The notes under the pieces: model-generated
Told to the model about the DNA's origin: nothing
The model's database searches: none
What the model saw: only the letters and a program-made list of their open reading frames with translations
Part shown: piece after piece, positions 9,425 to 48,084 of the stretch
Layout of the letters: each line of letters begins with the position of its first letter
Numbering within the stretch: position 1 is the stretch's first letter
Position numbers and translations under genes: made by a program
IMG/VR virus record: IMGVR_UViG_3300025141_000164
Span: 1 to 48,268 of that record
Reading direction: 5' to 3' (one strand)
Length of the DNA stretch: 48,268 bases
Origin: a virus

Positions 9425-11935
9425 ATGTCCAACTTCTGCCCAAAATGTCCCATGCGTTCCGCTGGGGGTGACGACCCTGTAGGTTCTGAATCCCATGCGG
9501 ATGACCGCGTCATCCTTTTAGGGGATGTGCCTGGAATGCACGAAACTATTGAAGGGAGACCCTTCGTAGGTCCCGGGGGCATGGAACTTCAACGGGCATT
9601 GAACGCGATTGGTGTGCGCCGGGACGAATGCTACATCACGAATACTATTCGTTGCCGCCCTCCAAGGAATGACCTCGAAGCCTTGAACATAAAGATTTCC
9701 CGGCAGAACAAGAGCAGACAGAAGAGAGCCCGAGAAGAGAAGACGGAAGCCTGCTTAATTAAAAAGCCCTTAGAGGCTTGCGGTGGAAGACTCTACGCAG
9801 AACTCAAGGCTACGGGAATCACAGACATAATCTGCCTGGGCAAAGCAGCGGCGAAAATGATTCGCGGGGGTGACCCCTCTATTATGGGACTACGGGGAGG
9901 GTGCGAACTACTGCCCGCTCCTTGGGACCCCGACACTCTTTTACGGGTTGCCTATGTGATGCACCCCTCTATGGTCCTACGTCAGATGGCGTACCAGGAT
10001 GTCTTCCGCCATGACCTGTCCAAGGCATTCCGCTTTTTCCAGGGAAAATTAGAGTGGGAAGACCCACTTATTGTGCGGCTTTCTAAGTACGAGGACATTG
10101 CAGAATATCTTGAGAAGTTCAAGCGGGAGGGGAAGCCACTTGCGTATGACCTTGAAACCGATGGCATCAACCCACTTACTGCGAATGTCCGGTGCGTCGG
10201 AATCGGAAACGAGGATGAAGCCCTAATCATTGAGATTCGGAGCATTCACGGGCATCTGCTCATAGAGCCCGAGGATGAAGGGAGAATCAAGAATCTTATC
10301 CGTAAGTTCTTTGACTCTCCAGGTGTCCCCATCCTCGGACATAATGCAGGCCAGTATGACCGGCTCGTAATGGAGCAGTGGTTGGGTGCCACGCCTACCC
10401 TGACTTGCGATACTATTATCCTACATCTGCTCGCTGACAACGAACTTCCGCATAATCTTGGGTTCGTCGGGTCTTTTTACACAGACAATCCAGAAGCCTG
10501 GAAGGCAAACCATACTGCTGTACAAGCCAAGACTGATGAAGAACTCCATATCTATTGTGGGAAAGATGTTGCCGTCACCGCGAGAATCGCTCGGCCGCTT
10601 GCCCAAGATGTGAAAAGCCGTAAGCAGCTACACTTAGTTTCCAGAGAGCATACGCTACAGTCTTTGGGCTCTGCCATGCAGACGAATGGCATCGCTGTTG
10701 ACCTCGACCGGGCGACAGAGCACTTGATTTCCCTGGATAGTGAGGCGAAGAAGCACTTAGCTATCTGCCGGGAGATCACCTCCGAGAAGTTCAATCCCCA
10801 GAGTACCCGACAGATGGCAGGGCTCCTGTTCAAGGACTGGAAGCTGGCTCCTCACCACTACTCTGAGAAGACAGGCGACCCCTCTACGGACGATGAAACT
10901 TTGCGGACGATGATTGTCCATTATGGTTTGAGTGCAGACAGGGTGACCTTTCTTCGGTCTGTCCGAATCTACCGTAAGATGACTAAGCTCTTGGGCACCT
11001 ATGTCCGACCGCTGGTGGAGAACAAGACTCTCCGGATTCATCCCTCATATAATAGGCTGCCTGCCACGGGAAGGTACTCCTCTTCCAACCCAAATGCCCA
11101 GAACATTCCTTACCTTCTTCGGGATATTTATGTCGCTAAGGAAGGACATGTCCTTATTGGGGCAGACATGGATCAACTTGAACTCCGGCTGATTGCGGAA
11201 GAGGCTAAAGCACAGCATTCTATTCGAGTCATCCGAGATGGGCTTGACCCCCACAACGAGACAATGGAGATTGTATATGGGAAAGGAATCTGGGAACTCG
11301 CAGGAGCGCCCAAAGATCGTAAGGAGAAGGGAAAAGGCAACTTCAAAGCCACCCGAGACATTACAAAAAACACCCGATACGCTTGGCAGTACGCTGCCTC
11401 CACTAAGCGGATTCACGAGCAAATCTGCTCAGTAGAGGACGATAGTGGGAACCTCATCTACGCGCATCTTTCTGTTGAAGATGTTCGTCAGGTAGTAGAG
11501 GGACTCAAGCGGGCTGACCCGGAGATCCCCCGTTGGTGGAGAATGATTGAGAGCAGGTACCGGAGAGAGGGGTTTATAGGAGACTCCCTCTGGGACAGGC
11601 GTAGGTACTTCAGAAATGAGGACAAGATTAATGAGCTTGTGAACCACCCCATCCAATCAGGGGGGGCTGTCATCGTGAATGAAGGAATGATTGAACTCAT
11701 TTATGGCGCTCAGCCCTGGTTCTCGACGGAGGCTATTTCTTCTACAGGAGAGACTCTCCCAGTAGAGTGGCTCATTAACCATGGACATGACGCGCTTTAT
11801 CTTGAGGTGCCTGAAGACACGGCAGAAGAAGCAGCCAAGATTCTTGAGGGTGCGATGAACAGAAGACGGAAAAAGAATCCCCTCCTTGACTACACAGCAG
11901 GAGCGGAGATTGGACACAGGTGGAATGAAGTATGA
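9425..11935 (+). CDS. Fusion of uracil-DNA-glycosylase-like domain and family A DNA polymerase
   Basis: An 836-residue replicative polymerase with three parts. Residues 1-205 resemble family 4 uracil-DNA glycosylase: motif GDVPGMHE...GRPFVG (33-49), NTIRCRPP (73-80), HPS (180-182), and cysteines C5, C8, C77 and C119 placed as for a 4Fe-4S cluster. Residues about 238-395 are a DEDDy 3'-5' exonuclease (D242, E244, HNAGQYD, Y377, D381). The rest is a family A polymerase: motif A D581-MDQLE586, motif B R644...K648...Y652, motif C H788-D789. No 5'-3' exonuclease domain is present. Motif B has Tyr where E. coli Pol I has Phe762, and motif C has Ala where most have Glu. The start lacks a strong ribosome site. 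Confidence 0.9.
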   Translation: MSNFCPKCPMRSAGGDDPVGSESHADDRVILLGDVPGMHETIEGRPFVGPGGMELQRALNAIGVRRDECYITNTIRCRPPRNDLEALNIKISRQNKSRQKRAREEKTEACLIKKPLEACGGRLYAELKATGITDIICLGKAAAKMIRGGDPSIMGLRGGCELLPAPWDPDTLLRVAYVMHPSMVLRQMAYQDVFRHDLSKAFRFFQGKLEWEDPLIVRLSKYEDIAEYLEKFKREGKPLAYDLETDGINPLTANVRCVGIGNEDEALIIEIRSIHGHLLIEPEDEGRIKNLIRKFFDSPGVPILGHNAGQYDRLVMEQWLGATPTLTCDTIILHLLADNELPHNLGFVGSFYTDNPEAWKANHTAVQAKTDEELHIYCGKDVAVTARIARPLAQDVKSRKQLHLVSREHTLQSLGSAMQTNGIAVDLDRATEHLISLDSEAKKHLAICREITSEKFNPQSTRQMAGLLFKDWKLAPHHYSEKTGDPSTDDETLRTMIVHYGLSADRVTFLRSVRIYRKMTKLLGTYVRPLVENKTLRIHPSYNRLPATGRYSSSNPNAQNIPYLLRDIYVAKEGHVLIGADMDQLELRLIAEEAKAQHSIRVIRDGLDPHNETMEIVYGKGIWELAGAPKDRKEKGKGNFKATRDITKNTRYAWQYAASTKRIHEQICSVEDDSGNLIYAHLSVEDVRQVVEGLKRADPEIPRWWRMIESRYRREGFIGDSLWDRRRYFRNEDKINELVNHPIQSGGAVIVNEGMIELIYGAQPWFSTEAISSTGETLPVEWLINHGHDALYLEVPEDTAEEAAKILEGAMNRRRKKNPLLDYTAGAEIGHRWNEV

Positions 11936-19340: not shown

Positions 19341-19802
19341 TTAGTTCTGGGCAGCCATCATGGTTGGGCAGCAAAATACGCGCCCTGTCGTTAAGCTCTG
19401 CTCGAACACAACCCCAACAAATCGAGCGTTAGCTGGTGCGCCTGCGGTAGTTTTAATCACTCCCTGGTTTGCGGTAGCAGCGAGATAGACGGAGGTTCCG
19501 ACAGCAAAGGCATTAGTGTTTTGGCCCGTGAGCATCATCCAGGGCAGACAGACACCGCGTTTTCCAACTGGAATCGCGTGCTTAGTGATGAGGAGGGGGT
19601 TGTTGGCTCGGGCAGCAGAGGAAGCATCGGCAAGCTCAACAGTCAGGGTAGCGCCGGAAGTAGCCGTCGTTCCCACAGTGCGCTGAAAAGTTACCATACG
19701 ACCGGCGGGAATGACAGCGGCCGTATTGTTAACCACCAGGATTCCTTCTGCGTAAGGGACATTGGTGGCTGGCTTAATGGACTTTTGTTTCAAGACGGGC
19801 AT
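19341..19802 (-). CDS. Capsid-decoration-like protein (DUF2190-type)
   Basis: A 153-residue beta-rich protein with an AEGILVVNNTAAVIPAG start, a long Ala/Thr-rich middle and YLAATANQGVIKT then VGVVFEQ near the end. This resembles DUF2190-type capsid decoration proteins. A second decoration-like gene lies beside the major capsid gene (36146-36667), so this may instead decorate the tail or stem from duplication. An AAGGAG ribosome site precedes the ATG and lies in a five-pair hairpin. Confidence 0.6.
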   Translation of the reverse strand: MPVLKQKSIKPATNVPYAEGILVVNNTAAVIPAGRMVTFQRTVGTTATSGATLTVELADASSAARANNPLLITKHAIPVGKRGVCLPWMMLTGQNTNAFAVGTSVYLAATANQGVIKTTAGAPANARFVGVVFEQSLTTGRVFCCPTMMAAQN

Positions 19803-19906
19803 CGTACTCTCCTTAGAGTCTTCTCAACTATCTTCAGTGAGGCCTCGACATCTTCGTCGAAGTTATTGGAATCTTACTGTGTATTTTAGATTTTGTCGAG
19901 CTTGGA
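19803..19906 (-). promoter_or_regulatory. Gap before the second decoration-like gene with a ribosome-site hairpin
   Basis: On the minus strand, ACTCT (19819-19815) and AGAGT (19810-19806) close an AAGG loop that carries part of the AAGGAG ribosome site, three bases before the ATG. The rest of the gap is AT-rich and has a short palindrome CTTCGTCGAAG near 19852-19862. No convincing promoter is seen. Confidence 0.5.
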
Positions 19907-36694: not shown

Positions 36695-37780
36695 TTATGG
36701 GGTTCCGCCACCGGTAACAACACCGTTAGCGCGAAGTTGGTCACAGTACATACCCATGTTGAGGACGTACTCATAACGCCACATGTCTTGCTCAGGAATC
36801 CGGATAGGGCCACGAATAGCGAAATCGCCTTTCGTTTCCATGCCAGAATCATGTCCAAGCGTGTACATGTGCCAAGTGTCAGTCTTCATCATGTAGATGA
36901 CGCCATTAGCGGAGCCACCAGTGGTGAAGTTAGCGGCACCGTCAGTGATCGATTGCTCCAAGAAGAAGTCTGCTTCGAGGAATGGAATTCCTTGACGCAT
37001 AGCCTTGGGAGCTTTGTCGCCTTCGACGCGCATAACACGGACCTGATCATCAAGATCATCGATGTAGTTGAGGTACGAAGCCTCATCACCGAGGAGCAGA
37101 TCAACAGGGCCGCTGGCCTTCGAGCCTTGACGGCTGGCAGCATAGTAAGTCTGACGCATCGTCGCACGACCATCGGTCGCGAAAGATGAGATTTGACCAT
37201 ACTGGTTGTACCAACCAGAAGGACCACCCGCACCGGCTTTAGCAATACCAAATACGGTATCGGTCTGAGCGGCAGGAGCAGCATACTCGAACACGCCATC
37301 GCGGTTCGTGCCTTGGGGATTATAGGTTTGATCACCGTTCAAGGTGAGGAAACCGCCAACACCTGTGGTGGAGTTACCAGAGGCCATTTGACCTGCGATA
37401 CGCTCGTGGAAGTCGGACAGAGCCAACTCTGGATAACGCTTAATGATTTTGGCGAGATCGTTCTCACCATTAGCTTCAGCGAGATCCTTGCCGGGAACGT
37501 CAAATGCATAAATCATACGAGGAGCATAAGCATCACCTCGTTGAGCATTTTGACGGCGTCCGCCGGCAATGATTTCTGAGCCTGTCAGAACCTGGGTAAC
37601 GGTTCCTGGGCCGTCTGAGACGACGACAAACTCTCGGTAAGGGCCTTTTAAGGTTGCTCGATCCGTATTTCCCCGCTTGAGGACCCGCTCCATGAGCGGA
37701 TGCCAGAGGGTAAATAGTTCCGAGTAACCGGGGGCCAGATCTTGCAACGCGGTTGCGACTACATCAGGGCTAATTGCCAT
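36695..37780 (-). CDS. Major capsid protein
   Basis: A 361-residue protein of the HK97-like major capsid class, judged by length, order (directly after scaffold, before decoration) and layout: an N-terminal helix (MERVLKRGNTDRATLKG), a Gly-rich middle, a long spine-like helix (DEASYLNYIDDLDDQVRVMRVE) and C-terminal strands (NGVIYMMKTDTWHMYTLG). Codon use is strongly biased, as expected for the most abundant virion protein. A four-pair hairpin CTGA/TCAG with loop GGAT carries the ribosome site just upstream of the ATG. The family was not confirmed by search. Confidence 0.8.
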   Translation of the reverse strand: MAISPDVVATALQDLAPGYSELFTLWHPLMERVLKRGNTDRATLKGPYREFVVVSDGPGTVTQVLTGSEIIAGGRRQNAQRGDAYAPRMIYAFDVPGKDLAEANGENDLAKIIKRYPELALSDFHERIAGQMASGNSTTGVGGFLTLNGDQTYNPQGTNRDGVFEYAAPAAQTDTVFGIAKAGAGGPSGWYNQYGQISSFATDGRATMRQTYYAASRQGSKASGPVDLLLGDEASYLNYIDDLDDQVRVMRVEGDKAPKAMRQGIPFLEADFFLEQSITDGAANFTTGGSANGVIYMMKTDTWHMYTLGHDSGMETKGDFAIRGPIRIPEQDMWRYEYVLNMGMYCDQLRANGVVTGGGTP

Positions 37781-39160: not shown

Positions 39161-39586
39161 TTAGATTTGTATTTTTCTATCACCGAGGGATAAAGCCTTT
39201 CGGTGTGCGATCTCTTTGCGTTGGTGCTTTTTGCGGTCTTCATGGTCTCGAAAACCCTGTTTTCGGGCAGTCGCATCGACCTGATTCCGGACTTGATCTC
39301 GGTGCTCTTTGAATGAAGAATCATTCGCGCTGACGAGCCGACGGTCTTTCCTCCGGGCAAAGTACGCTTTCTGCTCTTCAGGAGAAGAGAAGGTTTGTCC
39401 AATCTGGTCTATTTTTAGAGAAGAGGAGACCCTTGGACCGATGAACGCGGGGGCATTCCGGATAACCGTAGCAGCCTTTGTCTTGCAATAAGGGCAAGAA
39501 AGGCCACCGAGATTTAGGTACTCAGTCGCCCGCATAACTTCTTCGAACTCTCCGCAGGCCGCACATCGCCCAGTATAAGTAGGCAT
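39161..39586 (-). CDS. Zinc-ribbon protein, FmdB-like
   Basis: A 141-residue protein starting MPTYTGRCAACGEFEEV, with a second pair SCPYCKTK (C8, C11, C31, C34), as in FmdB-type zinc ribbons. A long, very basic C-terminal part rich in Arg, Lys, His and Gln follows, perhaps binding nucleic acid or the prohead. It overlaps the portal stop by one base. It is the second FmdB-like protein in the window. Confidence 0.75.
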   Translation of the reverse strand: MPTYTGRCAACGEFEEVMRATEYLNLGGLSCPYCKTKAATVIRNAPAFIGPRVSSSLKIDQIGQTFSSPEEQKAYFARRKDRRLVSANDSSFKEHRDQVRNQVDATARKQGFRDHEDRKKHQRKEIAHRKALSLGDRKIQI

Positions 39587-41436
39587 TACTGATTCCTCGG
39601 AATACCAGGGCCAGTATCAAAAGGGGCCCCACCGAACCCTGTCAGAGGACTTTGTCCTCCGCCAGCGCCTCCGCCCCCGGGTAGGGGAGGCATCACGGGT
39701 TCAGTGCCCGGGGGAAGAGCGCCACTCGCGATAGTATCGTTCGTTTGGCCAACCGGGGGCATTCCGCCCTGCGCTTGGGCCTGCGCTTCTTGGGCCTGTT
39801 GGTCTGCCGCCTGGGCCTCCTGTTCAAGCTGTTGCCTGTCTTTCAGGATGTCTTCCATTTGGAGAAGTTCTGTTAGTTTCCGGACGAGCCGTTTCTGGTC
39901 AATCTGTTCTGATTGTGCGAGGAGTTCAAAGTATTGACTCAAGTTCCGAAGCTGAACCAGGCGATTATTCTCAGTCGGAGAGTAGGGGACAGCGGAATAG
40001 TCATACTCCAGAGGCTCCTCTCCCTGAGCGGATAAGATTTCCCGAGCAAGCATAGATGCTCGTGTGATCTCGACAACCTCGGAGTCGCCTCCCATACGAA
40101 CAGGGAGGACTTCATCATCAGCGAGGAACTCTTCATAGAGACCTACAATGCTTTGGGATTGCCAAGAGATGAGATCATATACTTCTTGTTGGCGTCGGCC
40201 GTTCCGGGTCCGGGTCGCTGTATCAGCAAGAGCTACTTCTGTAGCAACATCGCTAACCCCGACGACTCCCCGAGAGTATTGGGGGATGCCCAGGATGAAC
40301 TCGATGACTTGAATACATCGGTCCCGAGCGGCAACGAACTCCGGTGACAAGCTCGGGGTCATTGTATGACCAACGATGTCCTGCATCGAAGCTCCGGATT
40401 TTCCTGCAACCTCAACGATAGAACCGGGAGAGGTAGCATCGCGTAGCTGCGAACGAATCCGTTCTGGATTGTCTACGAGGCCCGTGTTGAGCATCGTGAT
40501 TGGAATCGCCGTTTGAGCGAACCAAAGCATAAGCGTATCCAACTCATTGAGGCGCTCAAGCACTGGGGCAATAAGAGATACATCGCTAAGTCCTCCGATA
40601 TTCTCCAAGTTATCATTGAAGGTTAGTCGGTAGAAAGGATTACGGATGAACCGATAGGGGAGTTCTCCTGAGAAGAGGGGCTCCTCTTGGTCTTCCAAGT
40701 AATGAAAATATCGACCATCGCCTGAGAAGTCATAGACCTCATAAACGGTCACCCACTCGAAGACCTCTTTTGAGGACTCATTCATAAGGGAGCGATCACG
40801 CTGCTGGTCCTTGAGCCATTCAGGGTATCCACCAAACTGCGCTTTCTCAGCGACTTCAGCGGAATAAACCTTACTCTCATCGGAAGAATTCTTCTCCCGT
40901 TTGATGCGAGACTCGAAATCCTGTCGGGTGAGTACAGTAACCTCAATGGTGTATCGGATGTCTTCCCAGCGATCTACGGACATGTCGTACCAGACATAGC
41001 GAGGATCTACGACGAGGAAATCGGGGGAGCGCCTCTTGAAGTTCCAGACCGTTTTTACGAATGACCGAGGATAAACGCTGGACATCGTGGCTGCACGCCA
41101 GAGAATCCGGTGTGTCCGAACCCGCCGCAGCGTGTCATTGATGAGAGCTTCTCGGTATTTCGCAGGCTCGTGGAGCCCCTTTCGACGGGCATTTACCGTA
41201 ACTTCAGGATTATTGGGGCAGATATTCGCTACCATCGTGTCCACAAAAGCGTAAGGATAGTTTGTCTGAAAAGACAGGTCCTCATCGGCCTGGGCATCCG
41301 CGCTCCCCTGCGGCCCTCCGACTCCTGTAGACTGGCTGGTATACCAGGAGCGGACTTCGTCCCACCCCTTTTGGTCGATATGGGACTTGGCCTTATGGGT
41401 TTCGATCAAGCCCTTGATCTGGGATTTAGTCAACAT
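39586..41436 (-). CDS. Portal protein
   Basis: A 616-residue protein. Residues 40-110 (YAFVDTMVANICPNNPEV, RTHRILWRAATMSSVYPRSF) and the central block (FRLTFND-like, SLIAPVLERLNELDTLMLWFAQ, IQVIEFILGIPQYSRGV) fit phage portals: a wing, a long stem helix and a clip. The C-terminus is Gln/Ala/Gly/Pro-rich. Size and place after the terminase support the call. It would form the dodecameric DNA channel and bind the terminase and adaptor. Confidence 0.85.
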   Translation of the reverse strand: MLTKSQIKGLIETHKAKSHIDQKGWDEVRSWYTSQSTGVGGPQGSADAQADEDLSFQTNYPYAFVDTMVANICPNNPEVTVNARRKGLHEPAKYREALINDTLRRVRTHRILWRAATMSSVYPRSFVKTVWNFKRRSPDFLVVDPRYVWYDMSVDRWEDIRYTIEVTVLTRQDFESRIKREKNSSDESKVYSAEVAEKAQFGGYPEWLKDQQRDRSLMNESSKEVFEWVTVYEVYDFSGDGRYFHYLEDQEEPLFSGELPYRFIRNPFYRLTFNDNLENIGGLSDVSLIAPVLERLNELDTLMLWFAQTAIPITMLNTGLVDNPERIRSQLRDATSPGSIVEVAGKSGASMQDIVGHTMTPSLSPEFVAARDRCIQVIEFILGIPQYSRGVVGVSDVATEVALADTATRTRNGRRQQEVYDLISWQSQSIVGLYEEFLADDEVLPVRMGGDSEVVEITRASMLAREILSAQGEEPLEYDYSAVPYSPTENNRLVQLRNLSQYFELLAQSEQIDQKRLVRKLTELLQMEDILKDRQQLEQEAQAADQQAQEAQAQAQGGMPPVGQTNDTIASGALPPGTEPVMPPLPGGGGAGGGQSPLTGFGGAPFDTGPGIPRNQ

Positions 41437-41883: not shown

Positions 41884-42188
41884 TCCTGGTCACCCACCGC
41901 GCCTTTGATGTGTAGGTCTGGTTGCCGGACAAACTTCTTTTTCTTCTTTTTCCCGGCTTTCTTGACAGCATCGATTTCGGAGCCCCCCGCATCAATAGCA
42001 GCGTTGAGACTTTCCATCTTCTCTTCTGTCATTCGGCCTGGATCATTCGGGTCCTTCTCCGTACTGAATGCACGAGAAGCAGCCATCTTTCCGAGGGCGG
42101 CAGCCGGGAACATCCCGGGCATGGCCTTCTGGGCAGCGGCAACAGTAAGGCGTCCTGCTTTTTTAGCGGTATTATTCTTGTCAGGCAT
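41880..42188 (-). CDS. Small basic protein after the terminase
   Basis: A 102-residue protein with a basic N-terminus, a helical acidic middle (MTEEKMESLNAAIDAGG) and a run of six lysines (GKKKKKKFVRQ). It probably binds DNA or RNA. Coupled to the terminase by a TAATG overlap. No family is recognised. Confidence 0.6.
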   Translation of the reverse strand: MPDKNNTAKKAGRLTVAAAQKAMPGMFPAAALGKMAASRAFSTEKDPNDPGRMTEEKMESLNAAIDAGGSEIDAVKKAGKKKKKKFVRQPDLHIKGAVGDQE

Positions 42189-43891
42189 TATTTTCTCCGT
42201 TTCCGCACTGAGCGGTAAGAAAAGCGTTTTCTTTTCGTGGGTTTATCTGCCGAGAGTTTCTCTCGGTACATCTCTTGGTCATCGTAGCTCATTCCCGTAA
42301 ACATTACGACATTCGTATCCTTCACAGGAGCCCCCGGTTTATCTCTCTTAGGGAGATAGCGAGCGGCAACGATTGCCATGATAAGGGCTGAGACTTTATC
42401 CCAGTGATGTCGATCTCGGCGCTTTCCGCTGGTCTTTCCTCGGAGGATCTCAGCGCTGGCGCTTTCTTCGACGCGTTTGTCATTTTTATACGTCTGGAGT
42501 TGTTGTACGGTGTCGTGATCATTGAAAACCATAGTGTCGAGCAATGAATCTACCAACCAACCCGTTGCTTCGTCAAGGGACTTTGATGTAGAGGTAAATC
42601 CGGGCCTCAAACGCCCCTCACAGAAGACATTTGGGTATCCGCGCTCTTGGAGGAGAGAAAGCACAGCCTGGCCCACACCATTCGACTCAACAGTCAATAA
42701 GGCCTTATTGTAGCGGATTCCAGCCTTAATTAGAGCATCTGTGAACTTCAGGGGGTCTACATGGTCCGCGAACACAGCAACTTGCGTCCACTCGCCTCTC
42801 CAACACTTCAAAATCTGGAAGGAGGCGTGATCTCGGGCAGCATAACCCGCCGGATCGACTCCAATCGCGTATACCGCGCCCGCTTGTGGCGCTTCATATT
42901 CCATATAGGGCCCGGTCCAGTGCTGAAGACGCCCTTTTAGGTGCTTTTTGAGTGCGTGCTCGGGAATCGCGGCGTTTGTGCTGGCAATCCAGCAGCTTAG
43001 GTCGTCAAAGGGGTACATCACCCCGAACATTTCGGGATTCCGGCGAATCTCGGGGTCTGTGTCGAGGAGAAAACGCCTAAAAATAAGGTTCTCTTCTCGC
43101 AGACCCTGCTGGCCATACCTATTTAGGAGGTCGATCTCCTCATTCGTAGGCTGAAACCCATTGGGTACTGGACGGGCGTTCAGTTTTCCGTCCCAGAAGG
43201 GGAAGAACTTTGCCCGATGACGACCCGAGCCCCTTTTTGCCATCACATAGTGCTCATGCCAAGCGCAGTTCCGCTCCCAGGGAGTAGCCTCAAAAACGAC
43301 AAGAGCTTCCTGCCTATTGATCAGCGAGGGGTTGATGAGGAACATTGAGCCCGAGAAGTCAGACCATAAATGGCACTCTGAGGCATGAAATGAGTCGGGG
43401 GACTGCCCAACACCGACTGCTCCAGACTCAGCAGAAAGGACGCGCATCTTCCCCCCTTGGAGGGGGTCAAAGGTAAGCTGCCTGCTTTCTCGGGTCGCCA
43501 TCGACTTAGATTGCAGTGTCTTAGGCCAGCGTTGGTGAAGATAATGGACCCTCTTATGGAGGTAGTCCGCACGGTCACGATTATCTGCGATACAGACATG
43601 GTCCCAGCCCGGGATGAATGCAGCTTTACAGTACGCAGCATACTCAATCGAAAGGCTCTTTCCTGCTTGTCGATACCCTAAGAGAGTGAGGAAAGTCGTC
43701 TCGCCTGTGGGCAAACGCGGAGGATTCGACATGTAGTCCAGGACAGTATTCTGGAGTTCATAGGTGATCGCTGTTGGATCATACTTTACGAATCTACCTG
43801 TCTTCTGGTCATGCACTTCCCCGAAAGCCTGGAGGGCGTGCATCGGAGATCGAAGCGTATTGAGCAGTTGGGAGGCATTCTTCTGGCTCAC
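42188..43891 (-). CDS. terL: Terminase large subunit
   Basis: A 567-residue packaging motor. Walker A GYRQAGKS (residues 72-79) lies in the N-terminal ATPase, with FHASECHLW (168-176) as the Walker B region, where E172 is the candidate catalytic Glu. The C-terminal RNase H-like nuclease has D346 in GVDPAG, E402 in TVESNG and D498 in HHWDKVSA. The GTG start overlaps the previous stop (GTGA). It would cut and pump DNA into proheads through the portal two genes further on. A small terminase was not recognised; the two proteins encoded just before are candidates. Confidence 0.92.
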   Translation of the reverse strand: MSQKNASQLLNTLRSPMHALQAFGEVHDQKTGRFVKYDPTAITYELQNTVLDYMSNPPRLPTGETTFLTLLGYRQAGKSLSIEYAAYCKAAFIPGWDHVCIADNRDRADYLHKRVHYLHQRWPKTLQSKSMATRESRQLTFDPLQGGKMRVLSAESGAVGVGQSPDSFHASECHLWSDFSGSMFLINPSLINRQEALVVFEATPWERNCAWHEHYVMAKRGSGRHRAKFFPFWDGKLNARPVPNGFQPTNEEIDLLNRYGQQGLREENLIFRRFLLDTDPEIRRNPEMFGVMYPFDDLSCWIASTNAAIPEHALKKHLKGRLQHWTGPYMEYEAPQAGAVYAIGVDPAGYAARDHASFQILKCWRGEWTQVAVFADHVDPLKFTDALIKAGIRYNKALLTVESNGVGQAVLSLLQERGYPNVFCEGRLRPGFTSTSKSLDEATGWLVDSLLDTMVFNDHDTVQQLQTYKNDKRVEESASAEILRGKTSGKRRDRHHWDKVSALIMAIVAARYLPKRDKPGAPVKDTNVVMFTGMSYDDQEMYREKLSADKPTKRKRFSYRSVRKRRK

Positions 43892-46282: not shown

Positions 46283-46819
46283 CTATTCTCCTTGGGCTTT
46301 CTTACGAGGAAGTGCATCCAGAACAGGAGTAATATCCTTAGAAGGAGAGGGCAAAGCCTCTGTTCCACCAGCAAGTTGGATCAGTTGTTCAACGTAGTTC
46401 ACTTGTACTCCCGCTTGCTGAGGCTCATTTGCGATAATGCAAGTATACATGATCTCGGCCCATCTACGGAGTTCTGCACTTTGTGAAGTTTTCAGCTTGC
46501 CTTCTGCGACTGCAATACATACAGTAGTGGCGAAGTCAATAATAGCATCCGTCCGGTGAAGGTGTCCGGCGGCTTGTTTTAGGAACGTAGCAGGTAAACC
46601 ATCCGGCCCCTCGGCCAGTTTCTGGAGGAGTTCTGTGGACAGCATAGAAGGACTATCAGAAGGTGGTTTAGGTAGGCTCGCTGATAACCCAGGTTGAACC
46701 TGGCTTTTCGCCAGCACCTCTTTCCCGCCCCCGTCTTGCCCGTTGGTAGTGTCTGTCTCTAATCCTTCGGATTCATCGAAAACATCCATCCAATCATCCA
46801 TATCCTCTGGTCCGCTCAT
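46283..46819 (-). CDS. Uncharacterised 178-residue late protein
   Basis: ATG 46819 was chosen for its GGAGGGAAGA site and four-base overlap (ATGA) with the upstream gene. The first 70 residues are acidic and disordered. The rest is a helical domain (LLQKLAEGPDGLPATFLKQ, IIDFATTVCIAVAEGKLK) and a short tail. A small terminase or assembly role is possible; there is no family evidence. Confidence 0.6.
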   Translation of the reverse strand: MSGPEDMDDWMDVFDESEGLETDTTNGQDGGGKEVLAKSQVQPGLSASLPKPPSDSPSMLSTELLQKLAEGPDGLPATFLKQAAGHLHRTDAIIDFATTVCIAVAEGKLKTSQSAELRRWAEIMYTCIIANEPQQAGVQVNYVEQLIQLAGGTEALPSPSKDITPVLDALPRKKAQGE

Positions 46820-47814
46820 TCTTCCCTCCAAGGTAAACCCGGGTGCGGGTTCTTCTCTATTAATAGGTCTATCACATCCTCCGTCCGGAGTATATTCCCT
46901 GGCCTCGATTCCGGTACCCAGCCCTTCGGACGCCCTAAAATCCGGGCCCCCTCTGACCGTACTTTCCTTAACGGCGCTCTATACCTCCCATCCTCCTCCC
47001 AGAACAGTCGCTCATCGAGAGTATGCCACAGAGGCCGGTACTCGGGAAGCCATCTCTTCGCCCCCTTCCCCCTTGAGCCCGTAGCAAAGAGACTCCTCAC
47101 ATACATCGATTCCCTCATTTCCTTGAGCGCCTCCCTCATCGGAACGCCCCTCGGAGTATGAAATAAGAGCGCCCGGGCCCTTGCTGGCCTTATAATCACG
47201 GGCCTCATATCCGCGCCCAGAGCCCAGAGTGAGAACTTCGGCGTCTCCATCATCTGTCGGATGGCGAGCGCCGCTTCCTCCTCCCAATCCGGGTGGAGTT
47301 CTGCGAGCTTCACCGAACTGATCCCCGCCAACCACCAAAGCAGGAAACTGTATCCCCACTTTCCCCCCCGTCGCCCCCTGAGGGGTGCCCAGTGGAATAG
47401 GACACATGCGAGTTCGTAGGGACTCGGCGGATCTTTTAGGTTGAACGCCGAGAATAAGGCTTCCGGGTACTCCTTCTGCGCTACCGCGAACGTCTGACTC
47501 AGTGCCTCTTCCCCGAACGGAGTAGCGAGAATCCGGTGCCTCGACCTCTTCTGCCTGTCCTTCGACCCGAAATACTTCGGCATCAGCATCTTCTGGGGCA
47601 GGTTGTCCCTCTTCTCCGTGGCATTCTTGTACTGCTTCTTCACGGCGAACCATATCACCGGGTGCGATACGCCCAACGAAAGCAGCGTCAGCTTCCACTC
47701 CAGCGTCTTCACCGAGAAGTGAGTTTGCTCATATGCGTCCGGAATACCCGGGTGATGCAACGCATGGACGAAGTTCTTCAACTCATGGTGGCCTTTTACC
47801 CTAATCCTCTTCAT
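46816..47814 (-). CDS. Uncharacterised 332-residue protein, first gene of the late operon
   Basis: A basic protein with many Trp and Arg residues (WGYSFLLWWLAGISS, RPARARALLFHTPRG, KGWVPESRPGN). It is compact and appears to be globular rather than disordered. As first gene of the late operon it may be a packaging or late regulatory protein. I do not recognise it. GC content is higher than in downstream genes. A weak AGAAGA ribosome site precedes the ATG. Confidence 0.6.
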   Translation of the reverse strand: MKRIRVKGHHELKNFVHALHHPGIPDAYEQTHFSVKTLEWKLTLLSLGVSHPVIWFAVKKQYKNATEKRDNLPQKMLMPKYFGSKDRQKRSRHRILATPFGEEALSQTFAVAQKEYPEALFSAFNLKDPPSPYELACVLFHWAPLRGRRGGKWGYSFLLWWLAGISSVKLAELHPDWEEEAALAIRQMMETPKFSLWALGADMRPVIIRPARARALLFHTPRGVPMREALKEMRESMYVRSLFATGSRGKGAKRWLPEYRPLWHTLDERLFWEEDGRYRAPLRKVRSEGARILGRPKGWVPESRPGNILRTEDVIDLLIEKNPHPGLPWREE

Positions 47815-47877
47815 AATGGTCTTCTAACATCTAAGTCCTTATGAGTACAGGGTAAAAATGGTCTCACATGGAAGAGG

Positions 47878-47886
47878 TGGTATAAA
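47878..47886 (+). promoter_or_regulatory. Extended -10 promoter-like site reading into the hairpin array
   Basis: TGGTATAAA is an extended -10 element (TG-n-TATAAA). No good -35 hexamer lies 16-18 bases upstream, which extended -10 promoters can tolerate. Transcription would start near 47893, 24 bases before the first hairpin. Confidence 0.45.
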
Positions 47887-47916
47887 GAGAAGCGGGATTG
47901 CGCAGCAGGGGATGGC

Positions 47917-48084
47917 CCCGGCGAGCGCAGCTCGCCGGGAATCGCCGTCCCCGACGGCAAAAGAGCGCACCCGCTTTAGCGGGTATCGCCTAACGAGTGG
48001 GTGCAACCCACGAGTCTTCCGCGCCAGCGGAAGCCCCCCGGGGGGGACACGGGGGGGCAGGATGCCCCCCCTTGCCAAAGGCAA
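47917..48084. repeat. Array of eight consecutive small hairpins
   Basis: Perfect stems with their loops: 47917-47939 (10 bp, GCA), 47944-47958 (6 bp, CCC), 47969-47984 (6 bp, TTTA), 47997-48011 (6 bp, GCA), 48016-48033 (7 bp, GCCA), 48034-48046 (C6/G7 palindrome), 48051-48071 (9 bp, GGA) and 48072-48084 (5 bp, AAA). About 80 percent of 168 bases are in these elements. The stems differ in sequence, so this is not a repeat family; what is shared is the geometry of short stem and 3-4 base loop. Confidence 0.8.

Follow-up and report, generated by a model that had tools for sequence, protein, structure and literature searches.

A conserved cis block bordered by a sequence-variable tract of small hairpins in the divergent gap of an uncultured phage group

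Gene layout of the window and its relatives

The window, that is, the whole stretch of DNA analysed here, is a single viral contig of 48,268 bases from an uncultured phage, with late genes running leftward from 47814 and early genes rightward from the contig start. The late genes include those for the capsid (36695-37780, leftward), the portal (39586-41436, leftward) and the large terminase (42188-43891, - strand), the last matching annotated terminase large subunits (T4-like phages, CRP-7) at 21-28% identity. The first late gene, g332 (46819-47814, - strand), is conserved in position and of unknown fold, its structure search returning matches to unnamed viral models only. The adjacent g182 (46286-46819, - strand) encodes a helical protein, a candidate small terminase by position only; its structure search, with a low-confidence model (pLDDT 60) and middling Z, gave no informative fold. 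The early genes encode a primase, an SNF2 helicase, a nuclease and a PolA-type DNA polymerase, and the phage has its own primase-helicase and PolA. The polymerase (9425-11935, + strand) carries a uracil-DNA glycosylase domain at its N-terminus, and a few other phages match across both parts.

Relatives were gathered with a portal search, followed by terminase alignment and a DNA pattern, and they share the same gene order. Searches for relatives with g332 and with a 577-aa protein found none, no similar DNA was found among phage records, and a search of 398 genomes from the phylum of the L030 MAG recovered only that MAG itself. The gap between late and early genes is spanned by 11 genomes, while a twelfth contig (G007) is cut within the conserved block described below. 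In all relatives found, the position of the hairpin array corresponds to this divergent gap at the late/early boundary. Two of the genomes, G001 and G002, appear to be complete and circularly mapped, at about 54 kb each; G001 has a terminal repeat of 123 bases located away from the block, and the ends of G002 are similar, not identical. A further relative of the group, with a terminase 67% identical, lies inside a bacterial chromosome assembly, the Myxococcales MAG CP070713.1 (L029), which gives a hint as to the phage host.

The conserved block and the hairpin tract

Within the gap, a cis block of about 60 bases (47853-47914) lies immediately left of the array. Its main part (47853-47881, + strand) reads CAAAAATGGTCGCGCRTGAAAGAGGGGG in the relatives, the window copy being the most divergent, and it is found as a single copy per genome at the same place in 11 genomes. 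The block ends with GGGGATG (47908-47914, + strand), which 11 relatives all have unchanged, 27-30 nt away from the main part. Even the distant relatives L029 and L076 keep both AAACGGAA and GGGGATG. Over the same genome set, the neighbouring g332 has only 23-53% identity to the window copy, and the block is therefore under strong constraint. Protein coding was among the readings rejected; the reading frame of GGGGATG, for one, varies between relatives. On sequence comparison, then, the block is the feature that shows the marks of clear selection, and it was not flagged in an earlier note made from the letters of the window alone. In L030, a second partial copy, AATAGTCTCGCGTGAGAGAG, lies about 40 bases left of the block as a direct repeat resembling an iteron pair.

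To the right of the block, the earlier note had described an array of eight short hairpins in non-coding DNA, without common stem sequence, and these points are confirmed. Specifically, eight non-overlapping perfect hairpins with stems of 5-10 bp and loops of 1-4 bases cover 134 of the 168 bases (80%) between 47917 and 48084. All given on the + strand, they comprise a 10-bp stem with loop GCA (47917-47939, containing a GCGCAGC heptamer), 6 bp with loop CCC (47944-47958), 7 bp with loop TT (47969-47984), 6 bp with loop GCA (47997-48011), 7 bp with loop GCCA (48016-48033), a C6/G6 palindrome (48034-48046), 9 bp with loop GGA (48051-48071) and 5 bp with loop AAA (48072-48084). An extra hairpin, with loop GTAA and a 14-bp stem holding one G.T (93% complementary), lies at the contig end (48232-48263, + strand). 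The comparison with shuffled sequence proposed in the note leaves little room for chance: over 1000 dinucleotide-preserving shuffles the mean coverage was 17.6 +- 13.3 and the maximum 61, so that 134 was reached in none. Nowhere else in the window do 168 bases come close in density (0.36 for the runner-up vs 0.79 for the array); when folded as single-stranded DNA, the array scores z -5.9 on the + strand and -5.4 on the - strand. An alternative pairing joins the conserved GGGGATGGC (47908-47916) with GCCGTCCCC (47944-47952), enclosing the first hairpin and competing with the second. A coding function was rejected, as the 80-aa ORF on the + strand and the 101-aa ORF on the - strand lack counterparts among the relatives (tblastn E 0.05 at best) and no reading frame is shared; a search for tRNA and tmRNA found none.

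Comparison of the relatives shows that a structure class persists at the gap in most, not all, of them, while the hairpin sequences turn over. Right of the block, the + strand fold has z of -5.9 in the window, -7.5 in L030, -7.3 in L013, -6.0 in L016, -5.3 in L006, -4.6 in L005, -3.9 in L003 and -2.9 in both L023 and L025; L004 (z -1.2) and L008 (z -0.7) have no significant structure there. In six gap-holding genomes, hairpins are denser just right of the block than anywhere else on the contig. No stem sequences shared between relatives were found. Accordingly, the check across relatives proposed in the earlier note gives a divided answer, in that most relatives have a tract rich in hairpins at this position but no individual stem is conserved. 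Other repeats occupy the same gap in some genomes, namely tandem GCGGAGAATTTC repeats in L008 (1-362) and operator-like TGAACA-NN-TGTTCA palindromes in L004 and L006.

The tract is polarised by strand. When hairpins with a stem of 5 bp or longer and a loop of 3-5 are counted, the rightward (+) strand of the gaps has G..A loops in 23 of 52 cases and the reverse-complement T..C loops in 2 of 52. The window, L013, L016 and L030 contribute most of this signal, and 3 of the 23 G..A loops are L016 tandem copies. The rest of the same genomes has 135 G..A and 165 T..C loops among 1511 hairpins, and shuffles of the gaps predict 10% and 7%, respectively. Similarly, the GCGNAGC heptamer occurs in the gaps 25 times on the + strand and three times on the - strand (3.2 and 1.8 in shuffles). 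As the G..A loops are biased to the + strand, this would therefore be the folding strand; its loops include G..A, GNRA and UUCG types.

Rival readings of the tract

The same phages provide an example of what a conserved RNA looks like. A hairpin element on the - strand (window 19798-19862), at the same place in 10 relatives, lies just 3' of a 1995-aa late gene and before the next gene, and consists of stem-loops in tandem whose GAAGA(U)-type loop is conserved. In stem 1 (19862-19843), all 63 cells are paired, 6 of 7 pairs have changed on both sides and the only wobbles are G.U, as counted in nine of 11 genomes aligned by hand with the sixth loop base dropped; stem 2 (19841-19823) has a re-paired version in G014. 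The element has no match in Rfam. Its loop resembles lambda boxB, and by this analogy it is perhaps an antitermination or translational control RNA. The array is unlike this element.

The possibility that the tract is a structured phage RNA or a long structured 5' leader, running rightward from the block and evolving fast in sequence, has to be weighed against this example. Such an RNA would fit the G..A, GNRA and UUCG loops on the + strand, the better folding of this strand than of the other in L030, L013 and L006, and the capacity of GGGGATGGC to pair downstream in both the window and L003, with G.T in one and A-T in the other. Nevertheless, the conserved phage RNA offered as an option in the earlier note finds no support in the covariation and database evidence. 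At the gathering score, Rfam has no match in the window and nine relatives, the best sub-threshold match reaching 18 bits vs the 56-100 needed. A CsrA-type sponge, suggested by a weak rsmX match (18 bits), was rejected since its GGA is merely part of the G..A loop class. Consensus folding of the block and flank with RNAalifold gives four pairs, none covarying, and the array itself is not alignable, so that covariation within it is limited to two pairs in the L016 tandem units. An RNA under selection would be expected to have G.U in preference to A.C in stems with one mismatch. Near-perfect stems of this kind have G.T in 13 cases and A.C in nine, against 3.9 in shuffles; as both exceed the shuffles, the picture resembles once-perfect DNA stems eroding through transitions on one strand or the other. 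In bulk the mismatches have no RNA-type bias, although the excess of G.T over A.C, which is not significant, is still compatible with a weak RNA constraint. The extended -10 site noted earlier does exist in the window (TGGTATAAA, 47878-47886) but the relatives have TCAACC, TACACC or CATAGA at this position; it is therefore not a conserved promoter, and the putative sigma-70-like early promoters of the relatives, where recognisable, lie mostly right of the array. With no kept stem, two unstructured relatives (L004 and L008) and, in the same genomes, a true RNA element with conserved loop and covariation, an RNA reading is unlikely.

Far less probable still is that the hairpins are promoters for a virion RNA polymerase of the N4 type, an option also raised in the earlier note. 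The likeness is real at the level of geometry, as N4 promoters have 5-7 bp stems and a C-GNA-G loop with a sheared G:A pair described as a source of stability, and the N4 template hairpins share the C-GRA-G loop (PMC4496689); the early promoters recovered from the N4 record, written on the template strand, are GTTGC-GAA-GCAAC and GAAGC-GGA-GCTTC. In the window, however, GCGNAGC occurs in the first hairpin only, with C at the centre where N4 needs a purine, and the window hairpins do not have the purine and G required at the contacted positions. The array has far more hairpins, with many different loops and with loops and stem tops unrestricted to the contacted bases. As the note had already remarked, no polymerase of this kind is recognised: phmmer (--max) and tblastn with the N4 enzyme found nothing in the window and relatives, hhalign gave a probability of 0.1, and the Pfam models of the enzyme, four of which recognise N4's own in a control, matched none of the window proteins scanned. 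Neither a virion nor a T7-type polymerase was found in the relatives, the genome-wide PF21894 search among these having been run without a positive control. What the array has in common with N4 is the chemistry of the hairpins and not the system.

A more plausible but still doubtful reading is a functional initiation or loading zone, in which the + strand hairpins would serve during replication as binding sites for primase, SSB or some other protein of the phage. As DNA, the heptamer d(GCGNAGC) folds into a hairpin of exceptional stability. The N4 hairpins have the same sheared G:A loop (PMC4496689). Such a zone could make do with any hairpin that is stable and has a loop of this type, leaving the stems free to change; the polarity of the G..A loops, the recurrence of the tract beside a conserved block in most relatives and the primase-helicase and PolA of the phage itself all agree with it. 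Against it, L004 and L008 do without hairpins, no binding protein has been identified, and mutation alone on an exposed strand also gives polarity. Initiation hairpins of single-strand or primosome type are known at phage and plasmid origins (G4, phiX174, RSF1010 ssi), and they resemble the array in being small and stable, on one strand of a non-coding gap, with stable G..A loops and a conserved site adjoining; unlike the array, whose many stems differ in every relative, they are few, conserved and sequence-specific. By extension, interchangeable mini-hairpins of one polarity may form a single-strand platform for primase, SSB or terminase loading next to an origin, with selection on the class and not on individual hairpins, a proposal to be held as speculative. 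The opposite extreme, that the hairpins are neutral debris of an unconstrained spacer that gathers palindromes, unrelated to the nearby site, would account for the unrelated sequences between relatives and for the two relatives without a tract. This is improbable, since the hairpins are strand-polarised and lie at one place per genome, not across all gaps. Organelle genomes have mobile double-hairpin elements that likewise crowd short, GC-rich palindromes into spacers; those are shared units copied across the genome, whereas the array units differ and sit at one place.

A probable control site and proposed template switching

The reading we tentatively prefer, while granting it somewhat less than an even chance, combines a cis control site, of origin or packaging type, with a + strand DNA hairpin tract renewed by template switching. 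In this model, the gap would hold a conserved cis DNA element (47853-47914) with, to its right, a + strand that folds into many small hairpins. These would act or arise while the + strand is single-stranded, as it may be if a fork leaves the block rightward and copies it as the lagging-strand template. Template switching by the polymerase could then both create the stems and keep them perfect, and the structure class would outlast any particular sequence. This process has been described as a source of perfect stems and of their repair, with multi-base compensatory changes (PMC8794818), which is why the selection on structure claimed in the earlier note is not demonstrated by the array: such mutation can produce and mend perfect stems without selection. 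The hairpins attributed to it are similarly perfect, compensated over several bases and not conserved in sequence, but they were inferred in RNA genes, while the array is a dense, strand-polarised tract at one phage site (PMC8794818). A pattern of this sort is seen in L016, whose three tandem units have the same flanks and loop but inner arms altered on both sides (GTTGC/GCAAC, GCCGC/GCGGC, GGCGC/GCGCC), a comparison of three sequences only and weak by itself. A strain-level pair spanning the array was looked for and none was found, so that template switching has not been seen happening. The lack of significant structure in L004 and L008 also counts against the model. Density, position and polarity of the hairpins, the conserved block, the unshared stems and the lack of an RNA-type mismatch bias are observations, whereas the role of the block, the exposure of the + strand and the making of the stems by template switching are inferred.

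The block itself most probably serves as a site of origin or packaging type, which phage proteins would recognise. In four of six genomes (G000, G001, G002 and G013, not G012 and G014), cumulative GC skew bottoms out no more than about 210 bases from the block, a measure confounded by the divergent gene orientation at this point. No origin-binding protein or iterons were identified, the block being single-copy save for the partial copy in L030. The large terminase is about 4 kb downstream of it. Within 415 bases to the right of the block, four contigs (G000, G004, G006 and G007) come to an end at different points, either because assembly broke at hairpins or because these are physical ends; a cos site with a fixed cut is not supported, since the ends do not coincide.

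Perfect hairpins are usually read as proof of RNA or of selection. In these phages, hairpin class, position and strand persist while the stems all change, which makes them a natural case for asking if such tracts can arise by template switching alone. If the tract is functional, it would be an origin or loading zone of a type to which sequence comparison is always blind. The conserved block, in turn, can be targeted directly in a search for the control site of this uncultured phage group.
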